In this document: positions 719 to 57,715 of the stretch, piece by piece
How positions within the stretch are numbered: the first letter of the stretch is position 1
Layout: every line of letters begins with the position of its first letter
Assembly: GCA_016235585.1 (NCBI GenBank)
Contig: JACRJY010000178.1
Location: 1 to 64,000 of the forward strand
Source of the DNA: Verrucomicrobiota bacterium
GTDB taxonomy: Bacteria; Verrucomicrobiota; Verrucomicrobiia; Limisphaerales; JACRJY01
Direction: 5' to 3'
Length of the DNA stretch: 64,000 bases
Made by a program: the position numbers and the translations under genes
The notes under the pieces: generated by a model
The model's input: the letters and a program-made list of their open reading frames with translations, nothing else
What the model was told of the DNA's origin: nothing
Database searches by the model: none

Positions 719-788
719 GGAGCGCCGGACTCCGATCCGGCAGGGTTGCGAGACGCTCCAAACGCGCCGATTCGGAGATCGGCGCTCC
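719..788. repeat. Palindromic repeat, family A copy 1
   Basis: A 70 bp imperfect inverted repeat between rny and the MoxR gene. The left arm begins ggagcgccggactccgat and the right arm ends tcggagatcggcgctcc; about 19 of 23 arm positions pair. Four more copies lie at 11076, 16071, 18607 and 43227. No coding potential is credible here. Confidence 0.9.
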
Positions 789-7504: not shown

Positions 7505-9390
7505 CGGAGCAGTTGGACAACGTGCCAGGGGCGTTCTCCCTGCGAGGCCAGCAGGGTCAGTGACTGGCTGGCCAGAACGCGGGCGCGATGGTGCCCGCAC
7601 CACTCTTCCACCGTCTGACCGAAGAGCCGCTTCAATCCCGCCGAACTGATGACGACATATTCCACCCCGCGCTGACGCAGCAACTCGATGTCGTCCCCCG
7701 GCAGGATCAGCACCACGCGGCGTCCGCCCAAGGGACGCCAGAGGGAGGTTTCCGGCTCGTTTCCGTTCGAGAGGAAGCCGAGGACGTTGGCGTCGGGCGG
7801 CACGAACCGGCGCAGCGGAGCCAGGCTGTCCGCCCGCCCGGCATAGACCGTGTAGACCCGGGCGGCGCGCTGGACAAACTGGCTTTCCGGCCACGCCGCG
7901 CTGAACCATCCGAGGACGGTTTGCGCGGGCCACAACGGGCGCGACGGCGTCACCACGATCACGAGCAGGGCCGCGCCGCTCACCGCCACGGCCAGCCCAC
8001 GCCACCAGCGGCGGCGTGCGAGGTAATCCTGTGCTGGCAACAGCAGCACGAGCGCGAGCAAAAGCGGATAATAGGGGGCGATGAGACGCGCGGTGGATTC
8101 ACTGCCCAACTGGGTGGCGAGCACGGCCAGCGAAATCCAGGCGGCCATCGCCACGGCCAGTCCGGGCCGGAGGACGCGCCATTCACCCCGGCGGAACTTG
8201 GCAAAAAAAATTCCGGCGACCGCGAGCAGCGTCACCCCCAGGCCCACGCCCGCGCTTTCCTCCTGCGCCAGCTCGCCCACGCCGGGCGTGAAACGCGGAA
8301 AGCCTCCGGCGAGCCGCTGATGCCATGCGGACGGCAGCGCGGCGGTCAGGCGTTCATTCAAGGATCGCGCCGCCGGGTTGAACGGCGGGGCCAGATTTTG
8401 CGCGGCGAGTTGGAGCGAATTGCCGAGCAGCCCCGTCGCGGCATCACTGGCGCGCAGGCGTTCCTGGTTGGCGGGATCGCCGCCCCAGTGGCCGGAGCAG
8501 CGGTGGTTCAACACGGCCTGCGGCAGGAACGACACGCCCAGCGCCAGCAACGTCGCCAGCGCGACCGGGCGGGACAACACCAGGCTTCGGGCCAGCCAGC
8601 AGGCCACGACCCAGGGCAGGAGCAGCGGAAGGTTTGAGGCTTTCGCGCCGGTCATCAGCGCGGCGGCGAGCACGGACCAGGCGAGGTTGCGAGCCGAACG
8701 GTTTTGCGCCGCGCGCTGCGCGAAGAAAATCGCCGCGAGCAGAAACACCGCCGCAAAGGCGTCGTTCCCGATGCTGCCAGCCTGCAGGAGAAAGCAGTAT
8801 CCTCCGGGCAGCAGCCACATCCAATGCCACGCGACAGCCGCCCGGACACCGAGCCGCCGGAACACGGCGAAAACGAGCGGCGGCAAAAGCAGGAAGGGAA
8901 TCCAGTTGAGCAGAAACAGTAGGCGGTCGCTGCGGGCCAGGGCCAGCACCGGGGCCATCAGCCATTCAAACCCGGTCGCACTGTAGTTCAGCCGGAGATC
9001 GGGGGAGGAAATCCAGTGCCAGCGGCCCTCGGCCAGCCAGTGCAGCACGCGCGGGACGCGATACGCCAGGGCGTCGTAGTTGTTCGGCGCGTGGAGCCAT
9101 CCGCTGACCAGCGCGGCGGCGGCGCCCAGTAGCCAGAGCCGGGGGAGCCAGCGGCACACGGGGCCGCGCCCGCGCCAGCAGGATTGAACCGAGCGCCGAC
9201 AACGGCCCAAGGCGGCGGTGCCATCTTCGCGCCGCCAAAACCAGACGGTGGCCGACAGCCCGGCCACCGCCAGCAGCGCGTAGGCCGTCCTGCCCAACAC
9301 GCCAAAGGCGGATAAAATCCATCCGGCCAGCACGCACGCCGCTCCCCCGGCGAGCCAGAGCTTGAGGAAAAATTCCGCCGCCGTCTTCAA
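7501..9390 (-). CDS. GT-C type membrane glycosyltransferase (GT39/ArnT-like)
   Basis: A 629-residue protein with roughly a dozen hydrophobic helices and a soluble C-terminal domain. The first extracytosolic loop has NNYDALAYRVPRVLHWLAEG, which matches the acidic-residue loop of lipid-linked-sugar glycosyltransferases of the GT-C fold. The TTG at 9390 overlaps the TGA of the upstream gene (TTGA on the coding strand) and gives MKTAAEFFLKLWLAGG, a sensible membrane start; a longer in-frame extension merely overlaps the upstream gene. The stop overlaps the TIM-barrel gene. Likely transfers a sugar from a polyprenyl carrier to a surface glycan; donor and acceptor unknown. Confidence 0.83.
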   Translation of the reverse strand: MKTAAEFFLKLWLAGGAACVLAGWILSAFGVLGRTAYALLAVAGLSATVWFWRREDGTAALGRCRRSVQSCWRGRGPVCRWLPRLWLLGAAAALVSGWLHAPNNYDALAYRVPRVLHWLAEGRWHWISSPDLRLNYSATGFEWLMAPVLALARSDRLLFLLNWIPFLLLPPLVFAVFRRLGVRAAVAWHWMWLLPGGYCFLLQAGSIGNDAFAAVFLLAAIFFAQRAAQNRSARNLAWSVLAAALMTGAKASNLPLLLPWVVACWLARSLVLSRPVALATLLALGVSFLPQAVLNHRCSGHWGGDPANQERLRASDAATGLLGNSLQLAAQNLAPPFNPAARSLNERLTAALPSAWHQRLAGGFPRFTPGVGELAQEESAGVGLGVTLLAVAGIFFAKFRRGEWRVLRPGLAVAMAAWISLAVLATQLGSESTARLIAPYYPLLLALVLLLPAQDYLARRRWWRGLAVAVSGAALLVIVVTPSRPLWPAQTVLGWFSAAWPESQFVQRAARVYTVYAGRADSLAPLRRFVPPDANVLGFLSNGNEPETSLWRPLGGRRVVLILPGDDIELLRQRGVEYVVISSAGLKRLFGQTVEEWCGHHRARVLASQSLTLLASQGERPWHVVQLLR

Positions 9391-10973
9391 GCGGAACGCT
9401 CTCCGGCCGATTCCGGGAGCGTGTCCCCGCCGCTCTCCGCCCACCGCGTGGACGCGGCGGGGGAATCCGCCCGGCCCCGCCGCACTTTTTCGAGCTGGAT
9501 GTTGCACACCATGAGCAGGCCGGCCTGGAGCGCAAACGACTTCAAGGCGTGTTCGCTGTCACCGTGGAGGAAAATGAAGACCACGACGTTCGCCATCCAC
9601 AGGCCGGTCAGCACGCTGCACATCCGCGTGAACGTGTCATCGCAGCCGATCCGCCGCAGGCGAAACATCATGCGGACGGCGATCCACGTGCTGGCGCCCA
9701 GAAAAACGAACATGAAGAGGGTGCCAAACAACCCGGTGTTGACCAGGAGGCCGATGGGGCCGTTGTAAAACTTGCCCGTGTTGACGTGCGAGGTCACGCC
9801 CGTGGGATCCCACAGGGAGGAAAAATCCACCGCCGAACTCATGCCGAAGCCGCGGCCCAGCCAGAGATACTGCGGAACCAGCTGCCAGCCGACCTGCCGC
9901 AGCGTGCGGCGCGTCTCCATCGTGCCCGCGCCGTCGGAGAGTGACTGGTTGTCAATGTCAATGCCGGGCAGCACCGAGAGGGCGCGCTGCACAGCCAGCG
10001 GGGTTTCCCGCGCGAACTGGTAGGCCGCCACGAGCGTGAGCACGGCCAGGCACAGGGTGACCAGCGCGTTCTTGACGGTCAGAAACTTTTGCGTGAAGGC
10101 GCAGAACGCCACGGTCAGGCCCACGATGACCAGCATCATGCGATGGCCGCTCGCCAGCCCCAGGCTCATGATGCCCAGCGCCAGCGGCAAGAGCACGAAG
10201 CCGCGCACTCCGAGGAAGTCCCGCAGGTGAAACCGCAGCATGAGCGCGAAGATCAGCGCCTGCCCCACGATCGCCAGCGACTGGAAGCGCCGCACGCCGA
10301 ACCTCATGTTCTGCATCTCGAAGTTGAGCGCGTCGCCCGGCAGCTCGAAGAATTGCAGCAGCACGAACAGCTCCTGCGGCGCGAAGGAAAAGACGAAGTC
10401 CGACACCAGATACGTGGCGCTCAAGAGCAGTTGGAGCATGAACAGGCGCGTGATCAGCTTCGCATCCATCCGAAACGCCAGGAACAGCACGGGGAAGATC
10501 GCGCAGGACAACTGTTGAATGTAAGAGCGCCCCCCCATCTGGTCGGTGCCCAGGATCCGCAGGCCCACCCCATGCACGGCCATCGTTACGAGCAGCACCG
10601 CGCAGTAGCCCAGTATTCCGGCGAACAGCACCCAGTGCCGCCGCAGATTGCCCCAGAAACCCGGCTCGTAGCGCCGCAGCGAAAGCGTCACCAGCATCCC
10701 CGTCCACGCCAGCAGCGCGGCGAACTCCCACCAGTAGGGCCGCCCGGGAAACAGCGGCACGATCAGCGCCGAGCCGAAGGTCGCCACCGCCACGCACGCC
10801 GCGATGGGCGTGTGATACGGCAGCAGCACCAGCCACGCCAGGCCGACGACGAGCATCCCCAGCACGAACGGATTGGAGGCGATGAGATACCCCGTGACCA
10901 GCAGCGCAAACGCCGCCAGGCCGAACCAGAAGAATAAGTTCAGCCGCACCCGATGTTCCCAGCCGGAAGTCAC
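9387..10973 (-). CDS. O-antigen ligase/polymerase-like membrane protein
   Basis: About 528 residues with 12 or so membrane helices and a large periplasmic loop (roughly residues 340-420, with TMETRRTLRQVGWQLVPQYL then GRGFGMSSAVDFSSL). This layout, and the RxxxW-type loop followed by GLLVNTGLFGTLFMF, fits the Wzy/WaaL (O-antigen polymerase/ligase) superfamily. Start is uncertain: GTG at 10973 (VTSGWEHRVRLN) is preferred because the frame extended to 11057 runs into repeat-derived sequence; GTG at 10949 is also possible. It heads a three-gene leftward unit with overlapping stops and starts. Polymerase versus ligase cannot be decided from sequence. Confidence 0.8.
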   Translation of the reverse strand: MTSGWEHRVRLNLFFWFGLAAFALLVTGYLIASNPFVLGMLVVGLAWLVLLPYHTPIAACVAVATFGSALIVPLFPGRPYWWEFAALLAWTGMLVTLSLRRYEPGFWGNLRRHWVLFAGILGYCAVLLVTMAVHGVGLRILGTDQMGGRSYIQQLSCAIFPVLFLAFRMDAKLITRLFMLQLLLSATYLVSDFVFSFAPQELFVLLQFFELPGDALNFEMQNMRFGVRRFQSLAIVGQALIFALMLRFHLRDFLGVRGFVLLPLALGIMSLGLASGHRMMLVIVGLTVAFCAFTQKFLTVKNALVTLCLAVLTLVAAYQFARETPLAVQRALSVLPGIDIDNQSLSDGAGTMETRRTLRQVGWQLVPQYLWLGRGFGMSSAVDFSSLWDPTGVTSHVNTGKFYNGPIGLLVNTGLFGTLFMFVFLGASTWIAVRMMFRLRRIGCDDTFTRMCSVLTGLWMANVVVFIFLHGDSEHALKSFALQAGLLMVCNIQLEKVRRGRADSPAASTRWAESGGDTLPESAGERSA

Positions 10974-11075
10974 GCGGAACTTGTAACTGGCATTCACCGC
11001 GGCTGCAAACCCGTTTTCCCGCAACAACCCTCGGGAGGGGCGCATCCGGGCTGCCACCGCTCCGTCAGGCCGGGC

Positions 11076-11146
11076 GGAACGCCGATCTCCGAATCGGCGC
11101 GGGGCGGGAGTTTTCCCACTCCTGCCGGATCGGAGTCCGGCGCTCC
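11076..11146. repeat. Palindromic repeat, family A copy 2
   Basis: 71 bp copy in the opposite orientation to the others, between the divergently transcribed polymerase-like and first GT4 genes. It starts ggaacgccgatctccgaat and ends cggagtccggcgctcc. It is preceded at about 11040 by gcatccgggctgcc, the outer arm seen complete around copy 4. Confidence 0.9.
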
Positions 11147-11222
11147 GGGGACAGCCGCCGCCCGCGTCCCCGTGGCAATCGCCTTTCAGGCGGCTTGGTT
11201 TTTTCTGGACGTTCCCCGGCGG

Positions 11223-15963: not shown

Positions 15964-16070
15964 ACCAAGGCTTAATCCAGCGACATGGCCCTACCCAAAG
16001 GAACATCGCCGCGACTTGCAACTAGTTTTTGCCGCCGGGGCCGCACGTGGGCGCCTCCGGGCTGCCCCCC

Positions 16071-16141
16071 GGAGCGCCGGACTCCGATCCCGCAGGGGTG
16101 AAAAAACTCCCGCCCCGCGCCGATGCGGAGATCGGCGTTCC
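16071..16141. repeat. Palindromic repeat, family A copy 3
   Basis: 71 bp copy in the 325 bp gap between flippase and TPR-peroxiredoxin genes, beginning ggagcgccggactccgat. It is followed by ggggcagcccggatgcgccc at about 16158-16177, the outer arm of the larger element, and by a short gcggcgt/acgccgc hairpin. The rest of the gap shows nothing recognisable apart from the likely promoter region of the rightward gene. Confidence 0.9.
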
Positions 16142-16288
16142 GCCCGGCCTGACGGAGCCGGGGCAGCCCGGATGCGCCCGAAGCGGCGTCAACGCCGCGC
16201 TCCGGCTTGCTTCGCGTGCCGAGGCCGCGTAGCGTCGCTGAATGCACCGAGAATCGCGCGAGTCAAAATTGCCGTTGCCTTTCAGCCC

Positions 16289-18583
16289 ATGAAAAAAACC
16301 ATCGTCCTCCTGCTCGCGCTCGCCTTCGCGTCCGCTGCCCGCGCCGACCATCCCGACCCCGGCCATTCCGCGCTCGGCGACGCCTTCGACGAAGGCCCGC
16401 GCCAGGCCGCCGTGCTGATGCCCGGCACCGGTGACGCGGTGAAGTTTCCCATCACCACGGCCAATCCGCTGGCGCAGAAGTTTTTCACGCAGGGCGTCGG
16501 GCAGATTCACGGCTTCTGGTTTTTCGAGGCCGAGCGCAGCTTCCGGCAGGTCGCCGCGCTCGACACGAACTGCGCCATCGCCTACTGGGGCATGGCGCTG
16601 GCGAACTTCAACAACGAGAAGCGCGCGAAGGAATTCATCAAGTCCGCCACGGCCAAACGCAGCCACGCGAGCAAACGCGAGCAGTTCTACATTGACGGCC
16701 TCGCGAAGTTTTACAGCGACGACAAGCGCGAGAAGAAGGTGCGCGAGCGCGAATTCATCCGCAGCCTTGAAGCTGTCGTGCAGGATTTCCCCGACGACAC
16801 CGAGGCGAAGGCGTTTCTCGCGCGCTACATCTGGGAATACCGGAGCAACAATCCCATCAACAGCCATCAGGCCGTGGACACGATTCTCAACGAGGTCTTC
16901 CGCGCCGAGCCGATGCACCCGGCGCATCACTTCCGCATTCACCTTTGGAACGGCGAAAAGGACGCGCGCGCCCTCGAATCCGCCGCGCGCTGCGGCCAGT
17001 CCGCGCCGGGCATCGCGCATATGTGGCACATGAGCGGCCACACCTACTCGTCGCTCAAACGCTACGGAGACGCGGCGTGGCAGCAGGAGGCCAGCGCCCG
17101 CACCGACCACGCCCACATGATGAAATACTGGGTGCTGCCGGATCAGATTCACAACTACGCCCACAACAACGAGTGGCTCATCCGCGACCTGAACCACGTC
17201 GGGCGCGTCCGCGACGCGGTGGAGCTGGCGAAAAACATGATCGAGCTGCCGCGCCACCCCAAGTGGAACACGCCGGACAAAGCGCGCGGCAGCGCCAGCT
17301 ACGGCCGCACCCGCCTGCTCGACACGCTCGTGCGCTACGAACTTTGGGATGACGTGCTGGCCTTGAACAAAACCGCCTATCTGGAACCGGCGACCAACGC
17401 CACGGCGGAAATCGCTCGCGTCCGCGCCGTCGGCCTCGCGCAGTTTCATCAAGGCGAAACCCTGACGCTCAAGGAAACGCTCGCCACGCTCGAAACCTTG
17501 GCAAAGAAGGAAACCTCCACGGGCAATCGTCGCCGCCCCGCCAACGCTTCCACCAATCAGGCGAAGGCCGCCCCGGCCAGCGCCTCGACCGGGCAAGCGT
17601 CTGGCTACGGTTCCAGCACCAACGCGCCCGCCAAGCTTGGCAGCGGCGCGGTCGCCGAAATCAAGGCGCTGCTCGCCATCGCGGAAAACGCCACCAACGC
17701 CCTCGCGCTGCTCGACGCCGCGAAGGACATTCCGAAGGATCGCCAGGCGAAATACTATTTGCGCCTCGGCGCGAACGACAAGGCCGAGCAGGCCGCGCTC
17801 GCCGCCGTGAAGGGCGCAACCAACGAAGTCCAGCCGCTCGCCGCCTGCATTGAGGTGCTCACCACGCTCGGCAAAGCTGCCGAGGCGCGCAAACGCCTCG
17901 AACAGTTGCGGAAAATCGCTGGGCACCTCGATTCGACCGCGCCGATTTATTCCCGGCTTGGCGACGTGGCGCAAAACCTCGGCCTGCCGCGCGACTGGCG
18001 GCAGCCGGCGGTGGCGTCCGCCGATGTCGGCGTGCGGCCGCCGCTGGATTCACTCGGCCCGATTCACTGGACGCCCACCAGCGCGCCGGACTGGACGCTG
18101 CCCGGCGAAAACACGGCCAAAGTTTCGCTCGCGGATTTTCGCGGCAAGCCGGTCATCGTGTTTTTCTACCTCGGCGCGGAGTGCCTGCATTGTGTCGAGC
18201 AGTTGAATGCCTTCGCGCCGCTCGCCACGGATTTCACCGAGGCGGGAATTTCCCTCGTGGCGATTGACGGCGGGCCGTTGAGCGACCTCGCCAAGACGCA
18301 CTCCAAGTGCAAGAGCGGCGACAAGTTTCCCTTCCCGCTCGCGTGCGACGAAAAGCTGGCCGTCTTCAAGCAATGGCGCTGCTTCGACGATTTCGAGGAC
18401 ATCCCGCTGCACGGCACCTTCCTCGTGGACGGCGCGGGCCGCCTGCGCTGGCTGGACATCAGCTATCAGCCGTTCATGGACGTGAAGTTCCTCCTCGCCG
18501 AAGCGAAGCGGCTGCTGAACCTGCCCGTGACCCGCGCGGCGGCGGTGGACGGCGCGAAGGCGGCACGGCGCGGCGGTGAGTGA
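16289..18583 (+). CDS. Exported TPR protein with C-terminal peroxiredoxin-like domain
   Basis: 764 residues. Signal peptide at 1-20 (MKKTIVLLLALAFASAARA). Residues about 45-450 form a helical TPR-like region with GFWFFEAERSFRQVAALD and repeated H-rich helices. A low-complexity Ala/Ser/Thr/Asn linker follows (about 408-450). The last 150 residues are a thioredoxin-fold AhpC/TSA-like domain: LADFRGKPVIVFFYLGAEC with a CLHC redox pair at Cys632/Cys635. The start is the ATG in front of the signal peptide; the frame continues upstream only through repeat DNA. The combination suggests a periplasmic redox protein, but the partner is unknown. Confidence 0.85.
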   Translation: MKKTIVLLLALAFASAARADHPDPGHSALGDAFDEGPRQAAVLMPGTGDAVKFPITTANPLAQKFFTQGVGQIHGFWFFEAERSFRQVAALDTNCAIAYWGMALANFNNEKRAKEFIKSATAKRSHASKREQFYIDGLAKFYSDDKREKKVREREFIRSLEAVVQDFPDDTEAKAFLARYIWEYRSNNPINSHQAVDTILNEVFRAEPMHPAHHFRIHLWNGEKDARALESAARCGQSAPGIAHMWHMSGHTYSSLKRYGDAAWQQEASARTDHAHMMKYWVLPDQIHNYAHNNEWLIRDLNHVGRVRDAVELAKNMIELPRHPKWNTPDKARGSASYGRTRLLDTLVRYELWDDVLALNKTAYLEPATNATAEIARVRAVGLAQFHQGETLTLKETLATLETLAKKETSTGNRRRPANASTNQAKAAPASASTGQASGYGSSTNAPAKLGSGAVAEIKALLAIAENATNALALLDAAKDIPKDRQAKYYLRLGANDKAEQAALAAVKGATNEVQPLAACIEVLTTLGKAAEARKRLEQLRKIAGHLDSTAPIYSRLGDVAQNLGLPRDWRQPAVASADVGVRPPLDSLGPIHWTPTSAPDWTLPGENTAKVSLADFRGKPVIVFFYLGAECLHCVEQLNAFAPLATDFTEAGISLVAIDGGPLSDLAKTHSKCKSGDKFPFPLACDEKLAVFKQWRCFDDFEDIPLHGTFLVDGAGRLRWLDISYQPFMDVKFLLAEAKRLLNLPVTRAAAVDGAKAARRGGE

Positions 18584-18584
18584 A

Positions 18585-18714
18585 GGGGTGCATCCGGGCT
18601 GCCCCCGGAGCGCCGGACTCCGATCCGGCAGGGGTGGAAAAAACCGATCCCGTGCCGATGCGGAGATCGGCGCTCCACCGCGTCCGCCGAGACGCGGGGC
18701 AGCCCGGATGCGCC
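18585..18714. repeat. Complete larger form of family A repeat (copy 4)
   Basis: The core is 18607-18676. Here the element is flanked on both sides: ggggtgcatccgggctgccc at 18585 and ggggcagcccggatgcgccc ending at 18714, a 20 bp outer inverted repeat with one mismatch. This copy shows that the full unit is about 130 bp with two nested stem-loops; other copies keep one outer arm or none. It begins two bases after the upstream stop. Confidence 0.9.
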
Positions 18715-18790
18715 CTGAATGGAGTTGCGGCCTACTCCTACTCCGCGCTCGACACGGCAGGCGGCGGCGATACGCTCCCGATTCAAACTT

Positions 18791-32427: not shown

Positions 32428-32431
32428 TATT

Positions 32432-32510
32432 TTTTAGCCACGGATGAAACACGGATGAACACAGAATTTTTTCTATCCGTGTTCTATCTGTGTTTCATCC
32501 GTGGCTAAAA
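32432..32510. repeat. Palindromic repeat, family C copy 1
   Basis: 79 bp inverted repeat, left arm ttttagccacggatgaaac and right arm gtttcatccgtggctaaaa. Copies at 49826 and 57318 share both ends. It lies between convergent cysteine desulfurase and GNAT genes, and the last codons and stop of the GNAT gene are inside it. Confidence 0.9.
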
Positions 32511-33526: not shown

Positions 33527-35794
33527 TTATGGAATCTTTACGCCCAATTCTTGCACCAGAAACGCCCACTTGTCCGCCGCTTCCTCGATGAGCTTCGCCG
33601 TCGGTTTGCCTGCGCCGTGGCCGGCCTTGGTCTCGATGCGGATGAGCACGGGCGTGTCGCCCGCGTGGCATTCCTGCAAACGCGCGGCGAACTTGAAGCT
33701 GTGCGCGGGCACCACGCGGTCGTCGTGGTCGGCGGTGGTTACGAGCGTGGCGGGGTATCTCACGCCGGACCGCAGGTTGTGCAGCGGCGAGTAGGCGTGG
33801 AGCGCCTTGAACTCGTCCGCGTTGTCCGCCGAGCCGTAGTCGCTCGTCCACGCCCAGCCGATGGTGAACTTGTGGAAGCGCAGCATGTCCATCACGCCCA
33901 CCGCTGGCAGCGCGGCGCGGAACAGCTCCGGTCTTTGCGTCATGCACGCTCCGACGAGCAGTCCGCCGTTGCTCCCGCCGCTGATGGCGAGCTTGGCGGG
34001 CGAAGTGTAGCGCTGCGGCGGATTTAGTAGTGGGACAGGCGTCCCGCCTGTTCGGTTGGATGACCGAGTTGAACCAGATTCCGCAGCGGAAGAACTGTTT
34101 GCTCTGCTGGACAGGCTGGAAGCCTGTCCCACTACTGAAGCTCCGCCGCACAGCCACTCCGCCGCTGCGATGAAATCGTCGAAGACATTTTGCTTCTTCA
34201 GCTTCGTGCCGGCCTGGTGCCAGTCCTCGCCGTATTCGCCGCCGCCGCGCAAATTCGGCACGGCATAGACGCCGCCCATTTCCAGCCACGTCGCCACGCT
34301 CACGGAAAACGCGGGCGTGAGGCTGATGTTGAAGCCGCCGTAGCCGTAGAGCAGCGCGGGATTTTTCCCGTCAAGCTTCAGGCCGCGCTTGTGCGTGATG
34401 AACATCGGCACGCGCGTGCCGTCCTTGCTCTGGTAAAAAATCTGCTTCGTCTCGAACGCCGCCGAATCAAAATCTACCTTCGGCGCGCGGAACACCGTGC
34501 TCTTGCCGCTCGCCACGTCGTAGCGGTAAATCGTCCCCGGCGTGGTGAAGCCGGTGAAGGAGTAAAAAGTCTCCGTGTCCGCGCGCTTGCCACCGAATCC
34601 GCCTGCGCTGCCGACGCCCGGCAAATCCACGTCGCGGAGAAACTTTCCATCGAGACCGAACACTTTGATTTCACTGCGGGCGTCCTGAAGAAAGTTCACG
34701 ATGAGTTTGCCACCGACGATGTTCGCGTGCTGCAAGGTCGCCTCGCCCTGCGGCACGATTTCGCGCCAGTGCTCGTGTTGCGGCTTGGAGGTGTCAATCG
34801 CCACGATGCGCCCACGCGGCGCGTTGAGGTCGGTGCGGAACCAGAAGACCGGGCCGTCGTTGTCAATGAACGCGAAGTCCGCCTCGAACTCGCGGATGAG
34901 TTCCACGACCTTCGCATCTTTCGCGCGAAGGTCTTTGAAGAAAACCATGTTCTTCGGATCGGTGCCGCGCCAGACGGAGACAATGAGGTAGCGTCCGTCA
35001 TCGGTGACGTGGCCGCCGAAGCCCCACTCCTTCTCGTCGCGCCGCTCGTAGATGAGCGTGTCCGCGCTTTGCGGCGTGCCGAGTTTGTGGAAGAAAAGTT
35101 TCTGGAAATAGTTCACGCCCTTGAGCGATTCGCCCGCCTTCGGCTCGTCGTAACGGCTGTAGAAAAACCCGCTGCCATCCGCGAGCCACGATGCGCCGGA
35201 GAATTTCACCCATTTGATGTGGTCATCGAGGTCTTTGCCCGTGCGCACATCGCGCACCTTCCATTCGTTCCAGTCCGAGCCGGACGCGGCAATGCCGTAG
35301 GCCATCAGATTGCCGTCGTCGCTGATGCTGTAGCCGGCGAGCGCGACCGTGCCGTCGGCGGAGAGCTTGTTCGGATCAAGCAGCACGCGTGGCGCGGCGT
35401 CGGGCGAATCGGCGACGTAGAGAACACTCTGGTTTTGCAGGCCGTCGTTTTTGTTGAAAAAGTAGCGCCCGCCCTCACGGAACGGCACGCCATAGCGCTC
35501 GTAGTTCCAAAGTATTGTGAGCCGCTCGCGGAGCGGCGCGCGCGCCGGAATATTTTCCAGATAGCCGAACGTCACCTTGTTCTGCGCCTCGGTCCACGCC
35601 TTGGTTTCCGGCGCATTGTCGTCCTCCAGCCAGCGGAACGGGTCGGCGACTTTCACGCCATGGTGGTCGTCCACGACGTTTGTTTTGGCGGTCGGCGGAT
35701 AGGCGAGTTTGGGGCGGTCGGCGGCAGGGGCAGGCATGGCAAGAAAGGCGGCGGCGCAAAGCGTGAAGGTTGAAATCAAGGTGGCGGACTTCAT
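33527..35794 (-). CDS. Prolyl oligopeptidase (S9A) with an in-frame palindromic insertion
   Basis: 755 residues, exported (signal MKSATLISTFTLCAAAFLAM). Serine peptidase cutting after proline in short peptides. A seven-blade propeller (about 75-440) is followed by the alpha/beta-hydrolase domain: Ser608 in SGGSNGG, Asp in TTADHDDRVVP and His in TKAGHGAGKP. Between AAEWL and YTSPAKLAI, where homologues have only a few residues, the protein has about 37 extra residues encoded by a palindromic repeat (34026-34136). The frame is intact and the catalytic triad unaltered. ATG at 35794 is preferred over the TTG at 35818 because it opens on the signal peptide. Confidence 0.92.
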   Translation of the reverse strand: MKSATLISTFTLCAAAFLAMPAPAADRPKLAYPPTAKTNVVDDHHGVKVADPFRWLEDDNAPETKAWTEAQNKVTFGYLENIPARAPLRERLTILWNYERYGVPFREGGRYFFNKNDGLQNQSVLYVADSPDAAPRVLLDPNKLSADGTVALAGYSISDDGNLMAYGIAASGSDWNEWKVRDVRTGKDLDDHIKWVKFSGASWLADGSGFFYSRYDEPKAGESLKGVNYFQKLFFHKLGTPQSADTLIYERRDEKEWGFGGHVTDDGRYLIVSVWRGTDPKNMVFFKDLRAKDAKVVELIREFEADFAFIDNDGPVFWFRTDLNAPRGRIVAIDTSKPQHEHWREIVPQGEATLQHANIVGGKLIVNFLQDARSEIKVFGLDGKFLRDVDLPGVGSAGGFGGKRADTETFYSFTGFTTPGTIYRYDVASGKSTVFRAPKVDFDSAAFETKQIFYQSKDGTRVPMFITHKRGLKLDGKNPALLYGYGGFNISLTPAFSVSVATWLEMGGVYAVPNLRGGGEYGEDWHQAGTKLKKQNVFDDFIAAAEWLCGGASVVGQASSLSSRANSSSAAESGSTRSSNRTGGTPVPLLNPPQRYTSPAKLAISGGSNGGLLVGACMTQRPELFRAALPAVGVMDMLRFHKFTIGWAWTSDYGSADNADEFKALHAYSPLHNLRSGVRYPATLVTTADHDDRVVPAHSFKFAARLQECHAGDTPVLIRIETKAGHGAGKPTAKLIEEAADKWAFLVQELGVKIP
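34026..34136. repeat. Palindromic repeat, family B copy 1, inside the prolyl oligopeptidase gene
   Basis: 111 bp (37 codons). Left arm agtagtgggacaggcgtccc at 34026 and right arm ending agcctgtcccactact at 34136; 24 of 26 terminal positions pair. Each arm is also a short palindrome around acaggc/gcctgt. The related copy is in ligA at 55024. In the gene's strand it reads through without a stop. Confidence 0.92.
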
Positions 35795-43166: not shown

Positions 43167-43226
43167 GCGGGCGACCTTACGCGGGGCGGTGGGCCGGCGC
43201 AATGGGGCGCATCCGGGGCTGCTTTT

Positions 43227-43297
43227 GGAGCGCCGGACTCTGATCCGGCAGGGGTGGAAAAGGGCTGGCTCCGTGCCGATTCGGAGATCGGCGCTCC
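43227..43297. repeat. Palindromic repeat, family A copy 5
   Basis: 71 bp copy between thiE and the cyclophilin gene. Starts ggagcgccggactctgat and ends ttcggagatcggcgctcc; preceded by gcgcatccggggctgc, a partly decayed outer arm. In the same orientation as copies 1, 3 and 4. Confidence 0.9.
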
Positions 43298-45783: not shown

Positions 45784-45964
45784 AGCCGGAACCATGCAGT
45801 GGAGTTGAATGGGGAGCGCGTGGCGTCTCGCCCGCGGTTTTCGGCGTCTCGCCGAAAACTTCCCCGCCCGCCGGACGCTCGGTTTGGTCTGCGGCCCCAA
45901 ACCCGTCGGCGGGACGCCGACGGGTGCGACCGGGACGGTCGCGCTCCCCGCTTCAACTGTCAGG
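45784..45964. repeat. Repeat family D, copy 1
   Basis: About 181 bp. It opens agccggaaccatgcagtgga, carries ggggagcgcgtggcgtctcg and acccgtcggcgggacgccga, and ends gctccccgcttcaactgt. The same element occurs in the opposite orientation at 52958. It contains several internal hairpins and takes up most of the 334 bp gap before the Ig-repeat gene. Confidence 0.9.
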
Positions 45965-49825: not shown

Positions 49826-49929
49826 TTTTTAGCCACGGATGAAACACGGATTAAACACAGACAAGCGGGACGGACAGGAACCCAATTTCCCATCCGTGTT
49901 TCATCGGTGTTTCATCCGTGGCTAAAAAA
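49826..49929. repeat. Palindromic repeat, family C copy 2
   Basis: About 104 bp, starting tttttagccacggatgaaac and ending gtttcatccgtggctaaaaa. It separates trpG from the DUF2752 gene by little more than its own length; the DUF2752 ATG comes 10 bases after it. Confidence 0.9.
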
Positions 49930-49938
49930 TTGTGGCCG

Positions 49939-51741: not shown

Positions 51742-51937
51742 GTGTTTTCAAAATGGCGTTGGTTGCCCGCCCTGTAGCGCAGGATGCCATCCTGCTGTTT
51801 CGCCGGTTGGCAACCGGCCAAGCCGTGAATATTACGAAGGCATTTCGCAGTCAGAGGCGTTGACCGACTGCCAGTCGGCGAAACAGCAGATTGCCAATCT
51901 GCGCTACGCCGCCGATCGCGATTATTTTGAAAACCCG
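51742..51937. repeat. Long palindromic element, about 195 bp
   Basis: Inner arms 51774-51805 (gtagcgcaggatgccatcct...) and 51876-51907 pair at about 28 of 32 positions. Outer arms gtgttttcaaaat and attttgaaaac frame the element. It fills the gap between two convergent genes. Confidence 0.88.
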
Positions 51938-52957: not shown

Positions 52958-53150
52958 AAACCGGAACGATGCAGTTGAAACGGGGAGCGCGACCGTCCCG
53001 GTCGCCCCCGTCGGCGTCCCGCCGACGGGTTGGGGCGAACCCACCGTCCACCAAACGGTGCGTCCCGTTGGCGCGGGGAAGTTTTCGGCGGGACGCCTAA
53101 AACCGCGGGCGAGACGCCACGCGCTCCCAATTCAACTGCATGGTTTCAGC
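52958..53150. repeat. Repeat family D, copy 2 (inverted)
   Basis: About 193 bp; reverse complement of the element at 45784. It opens aaaccggaacgatgcagttg, and the inner blocks ccgtcggcgtcccgccgacg and gagacgccacgcgctccc match copy 1 on the other strand. It fills the gap between the SurA-like gene and ligA. Confidence 0.9.
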
Positions 53151-57317: not shown

Positions 57318-57464
57318 TTTAGCCACGGACGAAACACGGACGAAACACGGAACACAAAAGGTAGGGCGGGCAGTCCTCTGCCCGCCGCACCCAGCGCGCA
57401 CGGAGTGACGCTCTCTGTCTTCAATATTCCGAGTCCGTGTTCATTCCGTGTTTCATCTGTGGCT
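57318..57464. repeat. Palindromic repeat, family C copy 3, with an internal hairpin
   Basis: Ends are tttagccacggacgaaacac and gtgtttcatctgtggct. In the middle is a separate hairpin gggcgggcagtcctctgcccgcc, possibly another element inserted into this copy. It fills the 160 bp between lipA and the glutaredoxin gene. Confidence 0.85.
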
Positions 57465-57466
57465 GC

Positions 57467-57715
57467 TTAAAACTGGTTTTCCTTCCACCACACTTCGAGT
57501 TCATCCGCGCCGAAGTCTGCGAGGATTTTGCCGTCCACGTCAATGCTCGGTGCCCGCGTCTGGCCGGTGAGTTCAAGCATCTCGTCGCGCGCGGTGCGGT
57601 CGGCAGTGACGTCGAGCTGTTCGTAGCGGATGCCGCGCTCGTCGAGCCAGTCCATGGCCTCGTCGCACCACGGGCAGAAGGGTTTGATGAAGAGGCGGGT
57701 TTTCTTTGGCTTCAT
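57467..57715 (-). CDS. Glutaredoxin-like protein
   Basis: 82 residues; thioredoxin-fold glutaredoxin with CPWC at residues 14-17 (LFIKPFCPWCDEAMDWL), YEQLDVTADRTARDEMLELT and the cis-proline stretch TGQTRAPSIDVDGK. Reduces disulfides or glutathionylated targets. The stop lies just outside the family C palindrome. Confidence 0.88.
   Translation of the reverse strand: MKPKKTRLFIKPFCPWCDEAMDWLDERGIRYEQLDVTADRTARDEMLELTGQTRAPSIDVDGKILADFGADELEVWWKENQF

Follow-up and report, generated by a model that had tools for sequence, protein, structure and literature searches.

Five copies of a short nested palindrome, here called family A, lie in the window, by which we mean the whole 64,000-nucleotide stretch of contig C147 analyzed here (Table 1). 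Their cores occur where the first-pass annotation had placed them, and all five have constant ends (GGAG/GGAA...CTCC/TTCC). Copy 1 starts 4 bp past the end of an ORF with an HD domain, and the left flanking duplication of copy 4 overlaps the stop codon (18581–18583) of an AhpC/TSA ORF. Copy 2 had been described as sitting where a polymerase-like gene would begin if extended. No polymerase domain was found there, and its neighbors are the starts of a minus-strand ORF (9387–11057, no Pfam match) and of a glycosyltransferase ORF. The two-tier hairpin reported for copy 4 is real, with the span first given for it, 18585–18714, one base off. This copy is not the only one with both outer arms, as had been supposed, since copy 3 has both and also folds into two tiers.

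Table 1. Family A copies in the window and the parts of copy 4
Feature	Position	Strand	Core (length)	Description
Copy 1	719–788	+	719–788 (70 bp)	"Naked" REP-like heterodimer; no TIRs; different spacer
Copy 2	11038–11146	−	11076–11146, inverted (71 bp)	Inverse composite; one TIR intact within 11038–11075, the other degenerate (11147–11172)
Copy 3	16049–16179	+	16071–16141 (71 bp)	Complete composite with both TIRs, 131 bp
Copy 4	18586–18715	+	18607–18676 (70 bp)	Complete composite, putative MITE, 130 bp; TIR 18586–18606, REP dimer 18607–18676, TIR 18696–18715
Copy 4, left target duplication	18577–18585			TGAGTGAAG; imperfect, 9 bp; 7 of 9 match 18716–18724
Copy 4, REP-like unit 1	18607–18629	+		GGAG tag and hairpin GCCGGA-CTCCGA-TCCGGC
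Copy 4, REP-like unit 2 (inverted)	18654–18676	−		GGAG tag and hairpin GCCGAT-CTCCGC-ATCGGC
Copy 4, right target duplication	18716–18724			TGAATGGAG
Copy 5	43205–43297	+	43227–43297 (71 bp)	Composite that has lost its right end and keeps the left TIR

Copies with conserved ends are found genome-wide rather than in the window alone. Across the 4,606,418 bases of the 221 contigs searched, the 23-base half arm GGAGCGCCGGACTCCGATCCGGC has 96 matches at up to three mismatches (1 for the reversed pattern), and a looser pattern for the unit has 215 (37 for its control). In five shuffled windows the best match to the half arm is still five to seven mismatches off. The "hundreds per genome" of the first-pass annotation is nevertheless excessive for family A proper: the stretches examined hold at least about 70 inverted dimers, all GGAG subtypes included. 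The exact 23-mer also occurs in three MAGs, assigned to Limisphaerales, Verrucomicrobia subdivision 3 and Caldilineaceae, in a record set from which close relatives may be missing. These matches suggest that the host is a verrucomicrobium of Limisphaerales type. The exact half arm in the MAG labeled Caldilineaceae (L176) would reflect either transfer or contamination.

The inner layer of the element is a pair of tagged units facing each other. Units were sampled from stretches around the genome matches, with chance-looking places omitted and general units after contig C104 under-sampled, and were called on tag and foot alone, pairing not being demanded. At least 172 units are present among the matches listed. 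At their two variable stem positions, 306 of 344 cells are paired, whereas redealing one side 2000 times gives 144 on average and never more than 181. At least 67 inverted dimers, with units 15–40 bp apart, occur among the same matches, and 59 of these are heterodimers. In the 67 dimers the variable cells pair within the arm in 236 of 268 cases and from arm to arm in 76 of 268; these counts replace those of an earlier scan (254 versus 76 of 276), which was biased because it demanded in-arm pairing. What is conserved is therefore not the long hairpin but, as in REP units, a small hairpin within each arm, preceded by a GGAG tag; these per-arm hairpins are kept at the expense of arm-to-arm pairing.

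We rejected a long RNA hairpin as the main selected structure because the variable stems pair within arms and not between them. The same pattern argues against a reading in which the unit is retained for an RNA or regulatory role, in mRNA 3′ stability or termination, with its spread secondary. Such a role would suit the strong folding of the unit and the position of copies 1 and 4 directly after ORF stop codons, but the ORFs on either side of copies 2 and 3 are divergently oriented, and there is no Rfam match at gathering score. We consider this reading improbable.

The tag itself is GGAG, with GGAA in a minority. The published REP superfamily is defined, in the account given by PMC3733652, by the tetranucleotide GTAG, and on a strict definition (GTAG at one end) the core falls outside it. 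Because of this difference in tag we call the core REP-like rather than a GTAG REP. Of 38 genomes of the order, the present one included, 10 contain GGAG units at up to two mismatches, and the exact 23-mer occurs in the present genome only. The GGAG dimers examined in relatives are mostly naked, with a few framed, as judged by eye. The REP units thus look older and more widespread than the family A composite.

No RAYT gene lies in the window, as the first-pass annotation had stated. A profile search of the genome locates Y1_Tnp at eight places, seven of them above the cut-off and none on contig C147. The RAYT on contig C33 has GGAG units on both flanks and more inside, and its gene is broken by a stop codon; its homologues in genomes G036 and G077 match either side of the insert, in adjoining pieces. 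Homologues at E 1e-15 or better are present in 15 of 97 genomes of the order, including the present one. Outside the present genome, 18 distinct loci remain once three duplicate rows are dropped, and by the criterion of a GGAG-tagged hairpin of at least 7 bp, seven of these carry such hairpins on each side and 11 carry none, with no locus having them on a single side. GGAG is the commonest hairpin tag near the RAYT homologues (40 versus 1 in shuffles), and from this and the two-sided loci we conclude that it is the tag of a RAYT-linked REP type in this lineage. With its tag and covarying mini-hairpin, its inverted heterodimers and its association with RAYTs, the inner 70 bp has the properties of a REP pair.

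Several RAYT loci deserve separate description. The sole alaS gene found in the genome has a RAYT gene interrupting its catalytic domain (L103:1209–5179, contig C178); PF01411 is matched on this contig in three pieces. The RAYT frame and the C-terminal half of alaS together span 1040 aa, with the N-terminal half in a different frame; the interruption is either a split essential gene or an assembly indel. On contig C74, which starts inside the RAYT, a RAYT is fused in frame to what resembles, by eye, the C-terminal part of DnaE, with GGACAGGC repeats between them (L102:2–1669). We narrowed a broader claim, that essential genes harbor RAYTs in frame, because the alaS RAYT frame continues into the C-terminal half only and because the dnaE contig starts within the RAYT. 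We also discarded a 623-aa open frame in G036, which by eye looks like an out-of-frame read of a neighboring gene.

The outer layer becomes apparent when the dimers are aligned with their flanks. Many share outer arms, GGGCGCATCCGGGC(A)CTGCCCC on both sides, followed by repeated flanking bases. These arms are TIRs of ∼22 bp that begin with GGG, and the 32 GA-type composites with both ends have a mean pairwise identity of 0.826. Target duplications were scored in the 35 of 69 dimers that have both ends at up to three mismatches, a count that retains two unscorable elements probably not in this frame (L061 and L069). With zero slack, flank identity at length 9 is 0.64, compared with 0.25 in controls and 0.20–0.34 at lengths 4–8 and 10–13. 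A perfect 9-mer duplication is present in 12 of the 35 elements, and a match of at least 8 of 9, with slack, in 16 of 35, as against 3 of 1190 mismatched flank pairs. Nine of the 35 match at just three or four of nine positions, and copy 3 in the window has no recognizable target duplication. Naked dimers (n = 16) show no duplication signal at lengths 2–13. The spacer distinguishes the same two classes, with an ungapped identity of 0.64 among framed dimers and 0.31 among unframed ones.

The same TIRs bound a 1378-bp insertion sequence in the present genome (L107:2439–3816, contig C105), where matches to the arm pattern lie 1378 bp apart. Its transposase scores best against the NCBIfam model NF033572 for ISKra4, with an E value of 1.2e-42 but a score (146.6 bits) that falls short of the curated cut-off of 205; ISH6 comes next at 44 bits, and a Pfam search gave no family. 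The gene is in two frames, apparently broken near the N terminus. This is the only full-length element of its type found in the genome, and it has no target duplication; a truncated second copy was recognized by eye on contig C163. Transposase homologues at E 1e-60 or better occur at nine places in 8 of 97 genomes of the order, counting the present one. In relatives, two of these are insertion sequences of 1380 and 1377 bp (L199 and L202) whose TIRs are of this type and agree at 21 and 22 of 22 positions; with the element of the present genome included, the range is 20–22 of 22. A third (L200) is ∼1.37 kb long, with a similar end and a duplication of 8–9 bp, and the remaining five places have no clear ends. 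ISKra4 is placed in the p-MULT group, for which the relevant entry in PMC3942029 gives IRs of 18–39 bp and DRs of 8 or 9 bp. The IRs of ∼22 bp and the duplications of 9 bp (MITEs) and 8–9 bp (L200) fall within these ranges.

Since 9-bp duplications lie outside the arms and an insertion sequence has the same ends, we read the outer arms as transposon ends, and not as a second REP tier. On this basis the 130-bp unit is a putative MITE, a non-coding composite that carries a REP-like dimer. The 9-bp duplications, their absence from naked dimers and the spacer common to framed dimers argue that the composite has spread as a unit, apparently by TIR/TSD transposition. Y1/RAYT-type transposition makes no target duplications. 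The whole 130-bp unit could alternatively be a large REP/BIME moved by a RAYT, with the outer arms as an extra palindromic tier, and both the eight Y1_Tnp places and the GGAG-tagged units flanking RAYT genes, here and in relatives, would agree with this. However, the 9-bp duplications lie exactly outside the outer arms, the arms are the ends of an ISKra4-type insertion sequence, REP families other than this one also lie between such arms, and some dimers are naked, with no outer arms at all. Mobilization of the whole unit by a RAYT was rejected on the target duplications and TIRs, and we regard it as highly improbable. The REP/RAYT reading of the first-pass annotation accordingly holds for the inner 70 bp, a REP pair, and fails for the whole 130 bp, which is bounded by transposon ends. 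Considered together, the sequence data are consistent with a model, to which we assign a probability of roughly 0.85, in which family A is a two-layer element with an ISKra4-type MITE outside and a REPIN/BIME-like dimer inside.

The two layers are separable. The ISKra4-type frame also encloses other cores, namely GTAGCGCAGG units in L109 and L110 (with both ends in L109 only), GGTAGGGACGACC units in L108 and, with perfect 9-bp duplications, a variant GGAG dimer in L194 and L195. No empty ISKra4-type frame was found among the matches listed. A second frame, with the ends GAGACCTCTGCAAAAC, contains GGAG dimers, GTAGCGGCGG dimers, GTAG(C/T)GGGACAGG dimers and a monomer, and in G029, a genome from another family of the order, a further type of dimer. 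This frame is thus shared by four or more types of dimer, across two bacterial families. The set with both ends comprises 30 elements, 23 from the present genome and 7 from G029. Their duplication is of 5 bp only (identity 0.81 versus 0.33 in controls) and is perfect in 14 of 29 elements, one element being short of flank, compared with 0.5% of controls. The length is 118–122 bp in 25 of the 30, though the measured dimer cores span 64–81 bp. A search for an autonomous donor of the second frame yielded just partial insertion sequence ends, in G020 and G027. In G020, a probable insertion sequence with second-frame-like ends (GAGACCTCTGAAAAAC) lies at several contig ends (L188–L190), likely through assembly collapse. 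An empty second frame of 54 bp, with a perfect 5-bp duplication (AATCC), is present on contig C35 (9770–9823; L134:571–624).

The outer layer of family A would be a non-autonomous MITE of ∼131 bp that shares its ends with an ISKra4-type insertion sequence. Cleavage at these ends by a DDE transposase supplied in trans, followed by insertion of the unit at a 9-bp staggered cut, would give rise to copies around the genome. The inner units are of the kind that the RAYT (Y1) transposases of the lineage are expected to handle as single strands. In the most likely order of events, a short TIR-TIR frame would first have received a REP dimer, with no duplication of the target, and the composite, now of ∼130 bp, would then have been amplified by the DDE system; its near-constant length may reflect a size need of the transposase. 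We tentatively extend this to a general scheme in which short MITE frames, derived from unrelated DDE insertion sequences, are loaded with REP dimers by RAYT-type Y1 transposases, and the DDE transposase then disperses only those frames that have been filled to a set length (118–122 bp for one frame, ∼131 bp for the other), although we hold this scheme to be possible rather than probable. Were such a two-engine transposon real, MITEs in this bacterial order would generally be filled with REP dimers, and the palindromes that surround REP dimers in other phyla, so far unexplained, would be MITEs of this kind.

Hairpins are known points of deletion and template switching. The dimer could therefore have been captured passively, by internal deletion of an insertion sequence around REP hairpins that had inserted into it or lay between two of its ends, the remnant then being amplified. 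This account involves no RAYT insertion into a short frame; it differs from the order proposed above in the sequence of events only and leaves the two-layer anatomy unchanged. The hairpins would have supplied the deletion or template-switch points, and the composite has, by eye, no recognizable insertion sequence interior. Against passive capture stand the number of REP families so enclosed, at least three in the ISKra4-type frame and at least four in the second, all bounded closely by their tags, and the 54-bp empty frame with its own 5-bp duplication. On balance we doubt this account.

The inner layer resembles the REPIN/REP doublets (BIMEs) associated with RAYTs in having two inverted tagged hairpins and a spacer within 70–72 bp, in forming heterodimers with different stems and in the flanking of RAYT genes by the same kind of unit. 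REP doublets have been described as mobile units, and in P. fluorescens SBW25 71 bp is one of the two commonest doublet spacings (PMC3116915). Unlike these systems, the tag here is GGAG rather than GTAG, and most copies lie in TIR frames with target duplications and appear to have moved as a DDE element. The outer layer in turn resembles ISKra4-type (p-MULT) MITEs, being non-coding, with TIRs of ∼22 bp and 9-bp duplications, and in sharing its ends with a full-length insertion sequence of the present genome, but its interior is a REP-like dimer from a different transposition system rather than a remnant of the insertion sequence.

Enclosure of REP dimers or elements by an unrelated palindrome has been described as a regular occurrence in A. 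variabilis (GTAG-15), T. roseum (GTAG-23) and H. neapolitanus (CGTC-1) (PMC3733652), and family A is like these cases. The section of that survey on palindromes mentions neither target duplications nor an insertion sequence and proposes no mechanism, and it reports that A. variabilis and H. neapolitanus yielded no target palindromes free of REPs; for REP heterodimers the survey states that there is "no obvious explanation" (PMC3733652). In contrast to those palindromes as described in that section, duplications, an insertion sequence and one empty frame were found here. Among titles and the openings of abstracts in the open-licence literature, we found no description of REP dimers in MITE frames with duplications. 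REP dimers in unexplained palindromes are thus already published, and the transposon explanation was not found in that literature.

REP sequences and MITEs are common small mobile repeats of bacteria, treated as separate systems with different enzymes. Here the two appear combined in a single unit, more than once and in MITE families of two unrelated kinds, and in such genomes the copy number of REPs can therefore not be credited to RAYTs alone. Our reading offers a testable explanation for the REP dimers in palindromes left unexplained by the 2013 survey, and raises the question of why filled frames are nearly equal in length.

The window contains other repeats besides family A. GTAG-tagged REP-like repeats of the GTAGTGGGACAGGC and GTAGCGCAGG families lie at 34027–34135 and 51774–51907. 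A further inverted repeat family (TTTAGCCACGGATGAAACACGGAT...) occupies 32429–32510, 49826–49930 and 57318–57468, with no duplication obvious by eye. Finally, the segments at 45800–45959 and 52972–53140 are inverted copies of each other, ∼7 kb apart and 94%–95% alike in two blocks.
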